Below, in pieces: positions 14,485-22,574 of a stretch of DNA of 49,686 nucleotides. The position numbers and the translations under genes were made by a program. The stretch comes from Spartobacteria bacterium (GTDB taxonomy: Bacteria; Verrucomicrobiota; Verrucomicrobiia; Chthoniobacterales; UBA10450). The notes beneath the pieces were generated by a model. It was not told where the DNA came from and did no database searches. It saw nothing but the letters and a program-made list of their open reading frames with translations. Numbering within the stretch: position 1 is the first letter of the stretch; every line of letters begins with the position of its first letter. Location: NCBI GenBank assembly GCA_003169975.1, contig PNAA01000007.1:107267-156952 (forward strand), given 5' to 3'.

Positions 14485-15684
14485 TTATTTTGCCGCTTTT
14501 TTCAGCGCGGCGGCCTTGTCGGTTCTTTCCCAGGTGATGTCCGGATCATTCTTCCCGAAATGCCCGTAGTTCGTGGTCTTCGAATAGATCGGCCGCAGCA
14601 AATCGAGTTGCGCGATGATGTGCGCGGGTTTGAAGGAGAAAGTCTCATTGACCGCCCGCTCGATCGCTTCTTCCGGGACGGTGTTGGTGTCGAAAGTGTT
14701 GATGTTCATGCTGACCGGATCCGGATAGCCGATGGCGTAAGCGAATTGGATTTCGCAGCGCGTCGCGAGGCCGGCGGCGACGACGTTCTTCGCCACCCAG
14801 CGCGCCATGTAGGCGGCGCTGCGATCAACCTTGCTCGGATCCTTGCCGGAAAATGCGCCACCTCCGTGCCGACCCCAGCCTCCGTAGCTGTCGACGATGA
14901 TTTTGCGACCCGTCAGGCCGGTGTCGCCTTCCGGACCGCCGATGACGAAGTTGCCGGTCGGGTTGATCAGGTATTCGGTCGCGTTGGTCAGCATTTCGTT
15001 AGGCAAAACTTTCCGGATGACCTCTTCAATGATGAAGCTGCGAATCTCCGAATGCTTCACGTCCTTCGAGTGTTGGGTCGAGACGACGACGTTGGAGACG
15101 CCGACCGGCCGGCCGCCGTCATAGATGACCGAGACCTGCGACTTGGCATCCGGTCGCAGCCAGCGCGCTTTGCCGCTCTTGCGAATGCGCGTGAGTTCGC
15201 GGCCGAGGCGGTGGGCAAACATGATCGGTGCCGGCATCAATTCCGGCGTTTCGTCGCAGGCGAAACCGAACATCAAGCCCTGGTCGCCCGCGCCCTGTTC
15301 GGCGTGCCCCTTGCCTTCGGCCTCGCGCGCATCGACCCCTTGCGCGATGTCCGCGCTTTGGTTGGTGATGATGTTCTGGATATCGATCTTGTCGGCGTGA
15401 AAAACGTCGTCGTCATTGACGTAGCCAATCTCGCGCACGGCATCGCGCACGATCTGGTCAATCGGCACGATGGCCTCCAGCGAAGTGCCATGCGGCAAGC
15501 TCGGGATGGTGATTTCGCCGCCCACAATCACGGTATGACTCTTGGCAAAAGTCTCACAAGCCACGCGGCTTTTCGGGTCGTGCCGGAGGCAGGCGTCGAG
15601 CACGGCGTCGGAGATGGTGTCGCAAACTTTATCCGGATGGCCTTCGCCCACGGATTCAGAAGCAAAAATGAAACGTCGAAGCAT
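14485..15684 (-). CDS. metK: S-adenosylmethionine synthetase (methionine adenosyltransferase)
   Basis: Makes S-adenosylmethionine from methionine and ATP. The 399-residue product has the N-terminal [19 protein letters not shown], the [15 protein letters not shown] hexapeptide region, the P-loop-like [20 protein letters not shown], and [14 protein letters not shown]. The ATG at 15684 follows directly on the control region shared with the divergent regulator. No SAM riboswitch would fit in the 98-bp gap. Together with ahcY it forms the core of the activated-methyl cycle. Confidence 0.97.
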
Positions 15685-15782: not shown

Positions 15783-16718
15783 ATGGCGTCAACCATAAAT
15801 TTCCTGCGCTTGCTCGCCGATCCGACACGGCTGCGCCTCCTTTTGCTCCTTGAGGAGGAGGAACTCTCGGTCGCGGAGCTGCAGGACGTTCTCGGGATGG
15901 GGCAGTCGCGCATCTCGAGCCACCTCGCGCAGTTGAAACGCGCCGGGGTGGTGGAAGATCGGCGCGCCGGGAAGAATGTTTATTATGGCCTAACGAATGG
16001 CCGGAAGCTCGACCCGCAGCACGCGAAGGTGAGCGAGCTGACCCGCGAACTGGCCCGCGAAATGCCCGAGACGCAGCGCGATCGCATCGCGTTGAAGATT
16101 GTCCTGCGGAAACGACAGGACAAGGCGCGGGAGTATTTCGATCAACTGGCGGGCCGATTTGGCCGCAGCTACTGTCCCGGCCGCTCATGGCAGGCGCTGG
16201 CTCATACCATGATCGCGCTCCTCCCGCCGCTCACCGTGGCAGATCTCGGGGCGGGCGAGGGGACCCTTTCGCAGTTGCTCGCCAAGAAGGCGCGCCAGGT
16301 GATCGCGGTCGATAACGCGCCGAAGATGGTCGAGTTCGGTGCGCAACTCGCGAAGCGGCATGGTTTCAAGAATCTCGAGTACCGTTTGGGCGACATCGAG
16401 GATCCGCCGATCGAAAAAAATTCGGTCGACCTCGCGTTTTTAAGTCAGGCCTTGCACCATGCGATCCATCCCGAGCGGGCGATCGTCGCCGCCTATCGCA
16501 TCCTGAAAAAAGGCGGCCGCCTCATCGTGCTCGATTTGTTGAGTCACCGTTTCGAAAAAGCGCGCGAACTCTACGCCGATCACTGGCTCGGGTTCAGCGA
16601 AGTGCAATTGCATCAGTGGCTCGAGAAAGCGGGCTTCACGCACCTCGAAGTGAGCGTGGTCTCCCGGGAAAAAGAGACCCCGCACTTCCAGACGGTTTTC
16701 GCCAGCGGTGTGAAATAG
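15783..16718 (+). CDS. ArsR-family regulator fused to a SAM-methyltransferase-like domain (SahR-like)
   Basis: Residues 1-75 form an ArsR winged helix-turn-helix (LADPTRLRLLLLLEEEELS, GMGQSRISSHLAQLKRAGVV, then the wing GKNVYYGL). Residues about 145-311 are a class I methyltransferase-fold domain with motif I VADLGAGEGTLSQLLA and the acidic end of strand 2 in VIAVDNAPKMVEF. This architecture matches SahR, known from Proteobacteria as an S-adenosylhomocysteine-sensing repressor of SAM-cycle genes. The context agrees: it is divergent from metK-ahcY across 98 bp with two palindromes. The metal-binding cysteines of classical ArsR proteins are not seen, which fits a small-molecule ligand. Whether the methyltransferase domain is catalytic is unknown. 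Confidence 0.87.
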   Translation: MASTINFLRLLADPTRLRLLLLLEEEELSVAELQDVLGMGQSRISSHLAQLKRAGVVEDRRAGKNVYYGLTNGRKLDPQHAKVSELTRELAREMPETQRDRIALKIVLRKRQDKAREYFDQLAGRFGRSYCPGRSWQALAHTMIALLPPLTVADLGAGEGTLSQLLAKKARQVIAVDNAPKMVEFGAQLAKRHGFKNLEYRLGDIEDPPIEKNSVDLAFLSQALHHAIHPERAIVAAYRILKKGGRLIVLDLLSHRFEKARELYADHWLGFSEVQLHQWLEKAGFTHLEVSVVSREKETPHFQTVFASGVK

Positions 16719-16910: not shown

Positions 16911-18662
16911 GTGAACCCCAAGAAATTTCTCGCTGAGCTGCAAAGGCGGAATGTTTACCGGGTCCTGGTCGCCTACGGCGTTGTCAGTTGGTTGCTGATT
17001 CAGATTGCGACGCAGGTTTTCCCGTTTTTCGAAATCCCGAATTGGGTGGTCCGGCTGGTGGTCATCCTCCTTCTTTTCGGCTGTCCGCTGACGTTGGTTC
17101 TGGCCTGGGCCTACGAAATCACGCCCCACGGCCTGAAACGAACGGACGAAGTCGATCCAGGAAAATCGATCCGGCGCAGCACGGGGAGGATAATCGATTT
17201 GATCATCATTGGCGTCCTGCTTCTGGTCATCGGAGTGCTGGTTTTCCAGCGCTTCCACCCCTTCCATCTGGGTCCCACCGAGGTGCCGGTGAAGAGCATC
17301 GCCGTTTTGCCTTTTGTCGATCTCAGTCAACAGAAGAATCAGGAGTATTTCAGCGACGGCCTGAGCGAGCAGATCATCAGCGCATTGGCCAGAATTCATG
17401 GATTGTTTGTCGTCGGCCGGACTTCGGCCTTTGCCTTTAAAGGCAAGACCGAGGACATCCGCGAGATAGGCCGGCTCCTGCACGTCAGGCACGTGCTGGA
17501 AGGAAGTGTCAGCCGCGGCCCGGGCCGGGTGCGGGTCGATGCGCGGCTCATCGATGTGACCAACGGCTATCAGCTTTGGTCGGAGATGTACGATTCAAGC
17601 GAACAGGACTTTCTCTTATTGCAAAATGACCTCGCGCAAAAAGTCGCCAGTGCGCTGCAAATCGAACTGCACCTGACGGAGACCAAACAGTTGGGGAAGG
17701 CGCCCACCAAGGACCCCGAGGCCTACGACCTGTATTTGCGCGGCCGATATTTTCTCAACAAGCGCACGGTTGAATCCATTCAGAAGGGGCAGACGCTTTT
17801 CGAGCAGGCGGTGGCGAAAGATCCGGGTTTTGCCCAAGGGCATGCGGGCCTGGCCGATTCCTACGTCCTGCTCGGCAAGATCGGCGCGATCACTCCCGGC
17901 GAGGCCTCGGTGCGGGCCTGGTCGGAAGTGTCGGCCGCGTTGACGATCGATGAAAATCTGGCCGAAGGCCTTGTCTCACGCGGAATATTGCTGACCGATT
18001 TTGAATGGAACTGGCCGGCGGGCGAAGCGGACTACCGCAAGGCGCTCGAACTCGACCCGAATAGCGCGACGGGTCATCTTTGGTACGCTCGGAATCTGGC
18101 GCAAGTGAGTCGTTTGGATGAAGCGTTGCAGGAGATTGGTGCCGCGCAGAGACAGGATCCCCTGGCGCCAATCATCCGCGTCTACCGGGCGAAAATTCTC
18201 TGCACAGCGCACCGCTACGATCGCGCGATCGAGCAAGGCCGGGCTGCGATTGATCTGGATCCGGATTTCGCCGCGGCCTTTTCCGTGCTCGGGCAGGCTT
18301 ATACCCTCAAGGGGCAGTTTCCGGAGGCGATTGCGACCGCGAAAAAATATGTCGAGCTCTCCAACCAGAGCGGCTGGGCCAGGTTGGAGCTCGCCTTCAC
18401 CTACGCGGCCGCTGGGAGAAAAACCGAGGCCGACGCCATCGTTCAGGAAGTGACCGCGCATCCCGGAGAATTTTCGCCCTACGACATGGCGACGATTTGC
18501 GCGGCCTTGCACGACAATCCTGGCGCCCTCAGCTGGCTTGAAAAAGCCATCGAGCAACGTTCCGTCGATGTCGTCTGGGCCCGGGTTGATCCGCGGCTCG
18601 ACAACGTGCGTTCTGATCCGCACTTCGGGCCAGTCGTCGCGCGGATGGCGCCGCGCCAGTGA
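16911..18662 (+). CDS. Membrane protein with TolB/FlgO-like domain and TPR repeats
   Basis: 583 residues. A short cytoplasmic start (MNPKKFLAELQRRNVYRVL) is followed by three hydrophobic segments near residues 18-40, 45-65 and 98-118. A TolB/FlgO-like domain begins at KSIAVLPFVDLS and includes YFSDGLSEQIISALARI, DIREIGRLLHVRHVLEGSVS and NGYQLWSEMYDS. TPR-type helices fill the rest (for example ALELDPNSATGHLWYARNLA). The GTG start at 16911 has a good ribosome binding site (GGAGAGG, 3 bp upstream). Such proteins are common in Verrucomicrobiota and Acidobacteriota, often fused or adjacent to kinases or cyclases; their role is not established. A decayed paralogue lies at 20.5 kb. Confidence 0.83.
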   Translation: MNPKKFLAELQRRNVYRVLVAYGVVSWLLIQIATQVFPFFEIPNWVVRLVVILLLFGCPLTLVLAWAYEITPHGLKRTDEVDPGKSIRRSTGRIIDLIIIGVLLLVIGVLVFQRFHPFHLGPTEVPVKSIAVLPFVDLSQQKNQEYFSDGLSEQIISALARIHGLFVVGRTSAFAFKGKTEDIREIGRLLHVRHVLEGSVSRGPGRVRVDARLIDVTNGYQLWSEMYDSSEQDFLLLQNDLAQKVASALQIELHLTETKQLGKAPTKDPEAYDLYLRGRYFLNKRTVESIQKGQTLFEQAVAKDPGFAQGHAGLADSYVLLGKIGAITPGEASVRAWSEVSAALTIDENLAEGLVSRGILLTDFEWNWPAGEADYRKALELDPNSATGHLWYARNLAQVSRLDEALQEIGAAQRQDPLAPIIRVYRAKILCTAHRYDRAIEQGRAAIDLDPDFAAAFSVLGQAYTLKGQFPEAIATAKKYVELSNQSGWARLELAFTYAAAGRKTEADAIVQEVTAHPGEFSPYDMATICAALHDNPGALSWLEKAIEQRSVDVVWARVDPRLDNVRSDPHFGPVVARMAPRQ

Positions 18663-18729
18663 ATGGTCGCAGAAAAGGCTTGCTCTGGAAGGTGCGTACG
18701 TCGTTCAATTCGAACGGAGGTAAATTGCC

Positions 18730-19020
18730 ATGCCAAATGACCAGTTCCCAGCCCCAGCAAAACCCTACTCGTTGAAGGAGATTGTCAAAAAAATCACCAC
18801 TGACCCCGGTTACGCGAACTTTATTCACGACCAGGTAAGTGCAGCCCGCAGCGGTAATGCGAGCGCGATCGCGATCGTGAAGGCGCACTTTCAACCCGGC
18901 ATGTCAGAGCTGACGGCGTTTGGATTAAGCGAAGACCAGGCGACCGCGCTCCTGAAGTGCACGGATCCGCGATCGCATCTCCTGGACTTCGCATATTACG
19001 TTGCGTATCCGCCGCCTTGA
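18730..19020 (+). CDS. Small ORF of 96 residues upstream of a LanKC-like enzyme; possible RiPP precursor
   Basis: Preceded by a strong ribosome binding site (CGGAGG at 18715-18720, 9 bp before ATG). The protein starts MPNDQFPAPAKPYSLKEIV, continues with a helical, charged region (DPGYANFIHDQVSAARSG), and ends with a single cysteine (ALLKCTDPRSHLLDFAYYVA). It has no signal peptide. The layout (helical front part, short tail with Ser, Thr and one Cys) and its position directly before a lanthipeptide-synthetase-like gene make it a candidate precursor peptide. The typical labionin pattern Ser-x2-Ser-x(2-5)-Cys is not present, so it may instead be a partner protein or unrelated. I do not recognise the family. 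Confidence 0.65.
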   Translation: MPNDQFPAPAKPYSLKEIVKKITTDPGYANFIHDQVSAARSGNASAIAIVKAHFQPGMSELTAFGLSEDQATALLKCTDPRSHLLDFAYYVAYPPP

Positions 19021-20330
19021 CCGCGGAGATCGCGCGCAAACTGCGACAGCGTTGGCGTCGACGCCTAACGAGTCTGCCCGGGCGTGATCGCTTTTGGTGC
19101 TACTCACGCGAGCCGCGGCCGGATGACCCTCCGCAAGGCTGGAAAATTCACCTTTCCGCGACGCTGCTCTCAGCGAACGAAGTCTTCGCCCGCGTCTGGC
19201 CGGTCCTGGTCAGGCACGATGCCTGGTTCAAAGTCGCGGCGCACTCCGATTTCCTTGCGCAACTAAACGCTGGCCTCACGGAATTTTCCCAGGTTGGAAA
19301 ATTTCTTACCGTCTATCCCCGCTCCACGCACGAGGCGGTCAATCTGGCGCGGGAGTTGCACACGGCCACACGAGGCTTACCCGGCCCGCGGATTCCATTC
19401 GACGAGCGCTATCGCAAGAATGGTCTGGTTTATTATCGCTACGGTTCCTTTCGAGTCGTTTCGAAAGACGCGGTCGCGGCGGGATTCATCACCGATCCGA
19501 CAGGCAAGGCGTATCGCGACCGGCGTGGACCGGGACGTGCGGTGCCCCGCTGGCTCGACGATCCTTTTAAGAAACCGCGCTTTGCAGATCACGGCGCACA
19601 TTATGGTGGCCCGCTCGCCCCGGATTATCTTCCGTTTCGAGCGGTCAGCCAAAGGGGAAAAGGCGGCGTCTACGAAGCCGTTGATCTCTCCGTGTCGCCG
19701 GCGCGGCGAGTCATTATCAAAGAGGGGCGTCGTCATGGCGAAACCGCCTGGGATGGCGAAGATGGTTACGCGCGGATCAAACGGGAAGGATTCGTCCTGC
19801 GCGCACTGCACCGTTCCGGAATTTCGGTGCCACAGGTATTTGGAGAATTGAATCGCGATGGGAATCGCTACCTTGTGCTCGAAAAAATCGCAGGTCGTTC
19901 CTTGATCGGCCGGGAAAAAATGCAGCCCCCGAAGCACTCCTGGCAGCGTGCGCTCCGCGTTCTCGAGCAGCTTGGTGGGGTGCTTGCGCAAATCCACGAC
20001 GGGGGCTGGGTCTGGCGCGACTGCAAACCATCTCATATTTTTCTGCACCGCGGCACGATCCGTTTGATTGATTTCGAGGGTGCATGTCGGATCAACACGC
20101 GCAATGTGCTCCCATGGGGCTCGCCGAATTATGTGCCAGCTTCGGCCCGCGGCAAATTTCAGCGCCGCGCGGGAACATGGGAGGATGACTACGCGCTCGG
20201 GGTCATCGTCTTCCAGTTTATGGCCGGTGAATTTCCACCGCTCAATTCCCGCCGGCGCCGCGCATTCTATCGAGAGAGCGGTTGCCCGGATTTCTTGCGC
20301 GCTCGGATCGAGAATCTGCTGCGGTGCTAA
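18957..20330 (+). CDS. Class III lanthipeptide synthetase-like protein (lyase plus kinase domains, no cyclase)
   Basis: The N-terminal half resembles the LanKC N-terminal (phospho-Ser/Thr lyase) domain: GWKIHLSATLLSANEVFARV, VGKFLTVYPRSTHEAVNLA, TRGLPGPRIPFDERYRKNG, VYYRYGSF, then DPTGKAYRDRRGPGRAVPRW. The second half is a protein kinase with all key motifs: Gly loop SQRGKGGVYEAVD, lysine in RVIIKEGR, catalytic loop WRDCKPSHIFL and the LanKC-style metal motif LIDFEGA, then GSPNYVPASA and EDDYALGVIVFQ. The protein ends right after the kinase at about 457 residues; the LanC cyclase domain of class III enzymes (usually over 800 residues) is missing. The ATG at 18957 overlaps the small ORF by 64 bp; a TTG at 19017, overlapping that ORF's stop as TTGA, is an attractive alternative. 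Confidence 0.83.
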   Translation: MHGSAIASPGLRILRCVSAALTAEIARKLRQRWRRRLTSLPGRDRFWCYSREPRPDDPPQGWKIHLSATLLSANEVFARVWPVLVRHDAWFKVAAHSDFLAQLNAGLTEFSQVGKFLTVYPRSTHEAVNLARELHTATRGLPGPRIPFDERYRKNGLVYYRYGSFRVVSKDAVAAGFITDPTGKAYRDRRGPGRAVPRWLDDPFKKPRFADHGAHYGGPLAPDYLPFRAVSQRGKGGVYEAVDLSVSPARRVIIKEGRRHGETAWDGEDGYARIKREGFVLRALHRSGISVPQVFGELNRDGNRYLVLEKIAGRSLIGREKMQPPKHSWQRALRVLEQLGGVLAQIHDGGWVWRDCKPSHIFLHRGTIRLIDFEGACRINTRNVLPWGSPNYVPASARGKFQRRAGTWEDDYALGVIVFQFMAGEFPPLNSRRRRAFYRESGCPDFLRARIENLLRC

Positions 20331-20537: not shown

Positions 20538-22574
20538 ATGAGTTCCTTCTTTCAGGAATTGAAACGGCGAAAGGTTTATCGCGTCGCGGTTGCCTGCGTC
20601 ATCGCTGCCGGCGGCATCATTTAGCTGGCCTCGGCGGTTTTTCCCGCGTGGGACCTTCCGAACTGGGCTTTGCGCCTCGTCGTCGTTCTGCTGCTGGTCG
20701 GTTTTCCGATCGCTCTCATCCTCGCCTGGGCGTTCGACGTGACACCCAGCGGCATCCAGGTCACGCCCACCCTCCCCGCCGCCGGGAATGGATTGGCGGG
20801 TGAGGGACATCGACGCAGGAATATTTTCGTGCTCGGCGTTTTCGGGCTGGTGGCGGCGGTCGCGGCCGGCTTTTTCCTCCTGCCCCACCTCACGGCGACG
20901 AAGATGGAGAAATCAATTGCCGTGCTGCCCTTTGAAAACCTGAGCGCCGACCAGGAGAACGCTTATTTCGCCGACGGCATCCAGGACGATATCCTGACGA
21001 GCCTGGCGAAGATTGGCGATCTCAAGGTCATCTCGCGCACTTCTGTCATGGCCTACCGGGGAAATGCGCGCAACATCCGCGAGATCGGCAAAGCACTGAG
21101 CGTCGGAGCGGTCCTTGAAGGAAGCGTGCGCCGGGAAGGAAAGCGGGTGCGCTTGAATGTCCAGTTGATCGATACGGCGACCGACCGGCATCTCTGGGCG
21201 GAGGATTACGATCGGGACCTGACCGACGTCTTCGCGATTCAAACTGACCTGGCCCAGAAGATCGCGCACAAATTGCAGGCGCAGCTCTCCCCTAACGAGA
21301 TGCAGCAGATCATGCGCAAGCCGACGGAGAACGGCGAAGCCTATCTCGCTTTCGTGGAAGCTCACAATTGGCATGTCAATCTGGAGGATGCCGCCAAACT
21401 GAAACAGGCGTCGCAACTTTACGAACGCGCCATCCAGCTCGATCCGAAGTTTGCTCTCGCAGTGGCCGACCTCTCCCATCTTGCAGAGCTGGGTCTTTCA
21501 CAATTTTGAACCGACCGAGGCGCAGCGCGAAGCGGCGCGCCGTTCGGCGGAACGCGCCCTGGAGCTGCAGCCGGACTTGCCCGAAGCGCACCTCGCGCGG
21601 GGCTATTCCCTCTATTACGGCGATCGCAAGTACGACGCCGCGCTCAAAGAGTTTGCCATTGCCTAGAGCGGGCTGCCCGAATGACGCGCAGGTTTATCTC
21701 GTTATCGGCGCCATCCAGCGCCGGCAAGGACGCTGGGCGGAATCGACTGCCAGCCTGGAAAAAGCGGTCCGACTGAATCCAAACGATACCTGGCCCTTGC
21801 AGAACCTGGTTTTCAATTACCAGATGCTGCGCGATTACGACGCGGCGGATCGCACACTCGACCGGGCTTTGGCGATGGCTCCAAAAATCCTTCAGCCTTT
21901 GGTCGATCAAGGCCAAACTCGCGATCGAGCAGCGGGGAGATTTTAGCGTCGCGGAAAAAGCGCTCGACGCGCTGGGCAAAGGGGCTGAGACGAGCGAAGC
22001 GCACCCGGACGCCGCGCTCGATATCGCCATCGCACAGCTAAACGTTTTCCTATGGCAGCGAAAATATCGGGAAGCACTTAAGGCCGCGAACAGTGTGAAG
22101 GATGAGGCGCTGTCCGCCAAACCGGAAGGCGCTTTCGAGAAGTATCTTTGCGAGGGCATCGCGTACGAAAAGTTGGGTCAGGCAGCGGAGTCGCGTTCCG
22201 CTTTTCTGAAGGCGAAAGAGTTGATCGAAGGAGCGGTGCGCACGGCCCCCAACTATGCCTCCGGGCACGCCAATCTGGCGCGGGCGCTGGCGCATTTGGG
22301 TGAAAAGGAGGCCGCCATCGCCGCAGCAAAACGCGCGACCGAATTGCTCCCCGAATCGGCCGACGCGTTCGAAGGACCGGTCATGACGGCGGCGCTGGCC
22401 GAGGTTTACGCGCTCACCGGTGAGAACGCGAAAGCGATCGAACTGCTCGATGGATTGCTCAGTCGGCCGAGCGAGGTGACGGCGGCAATGCTCAAGCTCG
22501 ATCCGGCGCTGGATCGGTTGCGCGACGATCCAGCCTTCCAAAAAATGCTCACGCAACACGAGAGCAAAGCCTGA
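20538..22574 (+). pseudogene. Decayed TolB/FlgO-like TPR membrane protein
   Basis: Paralogue of the gene at 16911. The start (MSSFFQELKRRKVYRVAVAC) is followed by an in-frame TAG at 20622-20624 where homologues have glutamine. The frame then continues through membrane segments and the TolB/FlgO-like domain (KSIAVLPFENLSADQENAYF, SVGAVLEGSVRREGKRVRLN). It breaks near 21485 (shift to the frame of WVFHNFEPTEAQREAARR), hits a second TAG at 21664-21666, again in a Gln context, shifts again near 21680 (DAQVYLVIGAIQRRQGRW) and returns to the original frame near 21899 (WSIKAKLAIEQRGDFSVAEK). Two nonsense changes and three frameshifts mean true decay is more likely than sequencing error. Confidence 0.88.

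Follow-up and report, generated by a model that had tools for sequence, protein, structure and literature searches.

Class III (LanKC) and class IV (LanL) lanthipeptide synthetases such as ThurKC, CuvL and VenL carry a RamC_N lyase followed by a kinase in one chain of about 880–980 residues with a LanC-like domain, and the precursor gene adjoins that of the enzyme. The man-made variant VenL-deltaC, containing lyase and kinase, dehydrated VenA fourfold and gave no detectable cyclised product (Goto 2010; PMC2843593). Class V lanthipeptides and the thioamitide/kintamdin systems (LanK+LanY, KinD+KinC) are also dehydrated by a kinase and a phospho-lyase, in class Va without LanC, and these are two separate proteins (PF01636 and PF17914). 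The class V rosins made by RosK/RosY show that closure of Lan rings can be governed by the substrate, with no LanC involved (PMC12291118).

The window, the whole stretch of 49,686 nucleotides that was analysed, belongs to contig C26; the genome measures 4.47 Mb and is related to Chthoniobacterales/Spartobacteria MAGs. An enzyme and a small protein encoded there (Table 1), of a kind present in some soil bacteria, appear to represent a hitherto undescribed line of ribosomally produced, modified peptides, and no description of a cyclase-less system of this kind was found in the open-access literature. The evidence consists of sequences and models throughout; many of the genomes are MAGs and neighbouring genes were partly called by eye.

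Table 1. Features at the cassette site (positions in the window)
Feature	Position	Strand	Basis or remark
metK	14485-15684	-	first gene of the site
ArsR-type HTH + methyltransferase gene	15783-16718	+	between metK and the FlgO/TolB-TPR gene
Membrane-anchored FlgO/TolB_N-like + TPR protein, 583 aa, co-inherited third cassette gene	16911-18662	+	Pfam FlgO 1.5e-6, TPR
GGAGG ribosome-binding site of the 96-aa ORF, 9 nt before ATG	18716-18720	+	direct reading
Precursor-like 96-aa protein, ATG start	18730-19020	+	family alignment, genome searches, AlphaFold model
Cys77-Thr78, proposed phosphorylation/elimination site	18958-18963	+	sole Cys and sole Ser/Thr columns conserved in 16/16 copies
Cyclase-less lyase-kinase, 437 aa from TTG 19017	19017-20330	+	domain, residue and model evidence
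RamC_N phospho-Ser/Thr lyase domain: K43, H45, K72, K95, D129, R141, R170 (437-aa numbering)	19035-19571	+	Pfam; residues mapped from ThurKC
Ser/Thr kinase domain: K235, E257, D335, D352-F-E354	19701-20258	+	Pfam; mapping from ThurKC

The preliminary description had assigned to the enzyme the lyase and kinase domains of class III synthetases with intact kinase motifs, and this assignment held. RamC_N (PF25816) was matched in Pfam with E 1.4e-45 and Pkinase with E 1.7e-12, and the kinase Lys, Glu, catalytic Asp and DFE are all present. Profile and structure searches both aligned the N-terminal region with LanKC/LanL lyases; the closest solved relatives by sequence and fold were CuvL, ThurKC and other class III synthetases, with a match spanning lyase and kinase. 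Residue mapping showed that ten of the eleven residues with roles defined by mutation in ThurKC (PMC10604976) were kept (K65, H67, K94, K117, D152, R163, R191, K257, E279 and E384, with D152 replaced by Glu in one relative). The K108 position apart, the lyase and kinase residues were intact in all 16 aligned enzymes. Pfam gave no match to the HopA1-type LanY domain (PF17914) in the enzyme, the lyase being RamC_N, and in contrast to the class V and thioamitide/kintamdin pairs the two activities are fused in one chain.

The enzyme had also been proposed to end where LanC should begin. No LANC_like domain (PF05147) was detected with Pfam in the enzyme, nor a LanC-like cyclase in its relatives or in the AlphaFold model, and the NCBIfam LanL and LanKC models aligned with it over only the first ~400 of ~850 model positions. 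In the AlphaFold model (mean pLDDT 85) both domains are complete and the kinase C-lobe is whole at the chain end. Because the relatives terminate at the same residue and group in a single clade, and because the modelled C-lobe is complete, a truncation or frameshift artefact was ruled out and the short form is taken as real rather than a broken gene. The cyclase-less relatives were about 440–530 aa long with 36–63% identity, compared with about 880–980 aa and 30–38% for full-length synthetases. In a tree of 38 rows, a branch with support 100/99 separated all 30 cyclase-less rows from the 8 full-length synthetases, the root not being settled. The enzyme can probably dehydrate threonine but has no ring-closing part; VenL-deltaC shares this domain content, but the short form described here occurs naturally and is widespread.

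The clade includes Verrucomicrobiota (Chthoniobacterales, Opitutaceae), Acidobacteriota, Bacillota (Fictibacillus gelatini) and Actinomycetota (a Propionibacteriales MAG). In Acidobacteriota the enzyme was present in 15 of 162 genomes of one class, and wider searches of the Bacillota order and the Actinomycetota class recovered only the starting genomes. Two damaged copies were also seen. At L058 (G079:C64, 9317-9586) the last 90 enzyme residues alone remain, with 72% identity, probably a decayed copy; at L053 (G072:C301), in the Verrucomicrobiota sister branch, a second enzyme copy is broken by stops (2 TGA, 2 TAA).

The 96-residue ORF was described beforehand as having a strong ribosome-binding site and overlapping or abutting the enzyme gene, and both features were confirmed, the more likely TTG start of the enzyme overlapping the TGA stop of the ORF. 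In other genomes, homologues (E 1e-5 to 1e-15) immediately precede the enzyme gene, indicating that the ORF is a real gene; it is a member of a new family. Profile searches found this family in 12 of the 213 genomes of the order, every one an enzyme carrier (12/14 carriers versus 0/199 other genomes; Fisher 7e-18). With one more case recognised by eye, 13 of the 14 carriers had the small ORF next to the enzyme gene, and the co-occurrence on which the preliminary description depended was thus borne out. In G042 a divergent 134-aa ORF with CTDH occupies the position, no recognisable small ORF accompanies the enzyme in G053, and G024, G027 and G043 each have two tandem copies. A precursor-like gene adjacent to and co-inherited with the putative modifying enzyme, the arrangement expected of a RiPP system, was found, and the earlier proposal of a new RiPP-type system is largely supported, with peptide modification as its putative chemistry.

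Across 16 copies, with 23–42% identity to the window protein among those aligned, only the start Met and Cys77-Thr78 were invariant. Asp or Glu follows in 14 of 16, and no other Ser/Thr column was kept in even 12 of the 16. The protein has a helical, leader-like part (about residues 1–75) and a C-terminal part (about 76–96) that varies in length among copies and is only slightly more variable in sequence (entropy 2.46 versus 2.09 bits). The AlphaFold model (pLDDT 82) places Cys77-Thr78 in a loop between helices 68–76 and 80–92. The length and predicted fold of the window protein are unusual for a RiPP precursor; a fold search gave no significant match and a plasmid search no match. The window core is CTDPRSHLLDFAYYVAYPPP, and the family alignment agrees with the suggestion of a new core type: unlike class III precursors, the family lacks the Ser-x2-Ser-x2-5-Cys core (Ser-x2-Ser-x-Cys in the preliminary description). 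Its leader also differs from those of class III/IV systems in giving no Nif11 or NHLP match, in NCBIfam for the family (A2) members or in Pfam for the members scanned.

The TolB/TPR membrane proteins on both sides had been suggested as possibly linked to export or sensing; of the two genes, the upstream one alone proved a consistent partner. Its cassette copy was the closest to that of the window by score in 11 of 14 carriers (window counted), and in the other three it was cut by the contig edge; identity was 52–66% where it was the top match and 55–59% where contig-cut, paralogues being abundant. At the metK/ArsR-methyltransferase site of 15 genomes without the enzyme, distant paralogues (mostly 28–38%) or none were present. 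The closest-match pattern and this absence indicate that the three genes are present or absent as a set, the upstream gene being co-inherited with the other two. Hydrophobic segments suggest that its TPR part would be periplasmic, and in some carriers its N-terminus is a guanylate/adenylate cyclase-like domain. The downstream gene (20539-22574) looks decayed, with a TAG stop in frame at 20623 and a break of the reading frame near 21507, and as a cassette partner it is unsupported in the window; several relatives have intact TolB/TPR paralogues at this position. Extra cassette-type TPR copies with 56–63% identity and no enzyme found beside them occur at L154 (G031:C78:3187-4521) and L160 (G043:C10:5-835, cut by the contig end).

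RiPP-like peptides were also observed beside related enzymes. Those of Fictibacillus gelatini ("..TTATTVTAVTITTTATVPFTTAATTTIGPFTTTTY") and the Propionibacteriales MAG ("..PTTTTTTTITTTTSLPCGITTTTTTTTT..") have a leader and a Thr-rich tail, cores that would be expected of a Thr dehydratase. In the Acidobacteriota peptides the leaders are of the "W..YM..F" type, and the tail contains a single, nearly invariant Cys, mostly after "AY", with Ser/Thr shortly after. Several of these loci are downstream of a haem peroxidase gene; at L100, L101, L102, L105 and L106 this upstream gene is of the animal type, and a convergent Ser/Thr kinase gene, often with an ECF sigma factor, lies downstream. Double-Gly-type leaders are typical of RiPP precursors, and "LSDLTPKKDARGG"-type leaders of this sort occur in the Verrucomicrobiota sister branch, where several scattered small ORFs of the type were seen at L053. 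The contrast in conservation between leader and core was clearer in the relatives' peptides than in the window family. Comparison of the window family with the Acidobacteriota/Bacillota set by hhalign gave a weak alignment over the leader only (E 1.5e-4, probability 51%).

We consider it probable that a membrane TPR protein, a precursor and a dehydratase form a three-gene RiPP-type cassette in which the Thr of Cys-Thr is converted to dehydrobutyrine with no dedicated cyclase. The helical N-terminal part of the small protein would act as leader. Thr78, the sole Ser/Thr kept in all copies, is the obvious target; the kinase would phosphorylate it, and the lyase would eliminate the phosphate to leave Cys77-dehydrobutyrine78. 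As the enzyme has no cyclase, the product would either remain a reactive dehydrated peptide or close without a dedicated enzyme, for which a seven-membered thioether between Cys and its neighbour is a possible form. Set against this reading are the enzyme of G053 with its missing small ORF, the length and predicted fold of the window protein, the slight difference in variability between leader and C-terminal part, the Gly at the Lys108 position, the two LanC proteins of the window's own genome, and a cassette in which reading by eye revealed no peptidase or exporter. If the reading is right, the dehydrating half of class III/IV synthetases is at work by itself in several phyla, a natural counterpart of VenL-deltaC, with a bearing on the origin of the three-domain lanthipeptide synthetases. 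Such clusters would escape genome mining that relies on the LanC domain, and the adjacent Cys-Thr would be a simple, testable substrate. A wider reading is offered tentatively, as possible rather than probable: natural cyclase-less lyase-kinases in at least four phyla may make up a broad, unnamed "dehydration-only" RiPP class, and in its Chthoniobacterales branch Cys-dehydrobutyrine may close spontaneously to a vicinal thioether, or stay reactive, and be shown to the membrane TPR protein.

An alternative that we regard as unlikely is a signalling module, in which the enzyme would mark the small protein with phospho-Thr and then by irreversible elimination at Thr78, and the TPR protein would read this switch with no peptide cut out or exported. 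No peptidase or exporter was recognised by eye among the cassette neighbours, and the folded prediction with Cys-Thr in a loop, together with the cyclase domain of some TPR partners, would fit such a switch. However, the tandem divergent copies and the C-terminal length variation argue against it, as does the resemblance of the relatives' Thr-rich tails or double-Gly-type leaders to RiPP precursors.

The absence of a cyclase from the enzyme leaves room for cyclisation in trans, by which the product would be a lanthipeptide after all. The window's own genome (G000) encodes two LANC_like proteins and the core has one Cys, but 11 of 14 carrier genomes have no LANC_like protein and the Fictibacillus core has no Cys. 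Moreover, both G000 LanC proteins belong to a separate class I cluster with its own full LanB and GG-leader candidate. These results make cyclisation in trans very unlikely, and of the earlier suggestions on the product the missing cyclase stood, whereas LanC acting in trans is mostly rejected as a rule. The class I lanthipeptide-like cluster is at L124 (G000:C33, 4723-11378), with a LanB of 1066 aa, two adjacent LanC and a small "VKDLSVRSAQADKLKGG" peptide with a Cys/Thr tail as the candidate precursor. Near the cassette itself, no decarboxylase or LanX-like gene was seen.

Least probable is a kinase-only enzyme that retains the lyase fold for binding and yields a phosphopeptide: the position of Lys108, required for dehydration in ThurKC (PMC10604976), is Gly in 16/16 aligned enzymes, but all 16 retain the seven remaining lyase residues that are required or important in ThurKC, with one Asp as Glu in one of the enzymes.

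The translation start of the enzyme was unusual, in the window (18957-19020) and upstream of the enzyme at L041, L044, L046, L049 and L050. The window frame opens at GTG 18957 (457 aa) or at TTG 19017, the latter being more likely the true start; ATT in L044 and L046 and CTG in L050 likewise overlap the precursor stop codon. No ATG precedes the catalytic QGWK motif in any of 14 clade enzymes, that is, in 783 open-frame codons where composition predicts about 9.5, the codons not being independent. Since three clade enzymes have no ATG, GTG or TTG at all before this motif, a programmed frameshift fusing precursor and enzyme was considered. Because the relative frame of the two genes differs between genomes, re-initiation at weak starts is preferred to such a fusion, though not proven. 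A simple reading is that weak re-initiation would keep the enzyme at low levels compared with its substrate.
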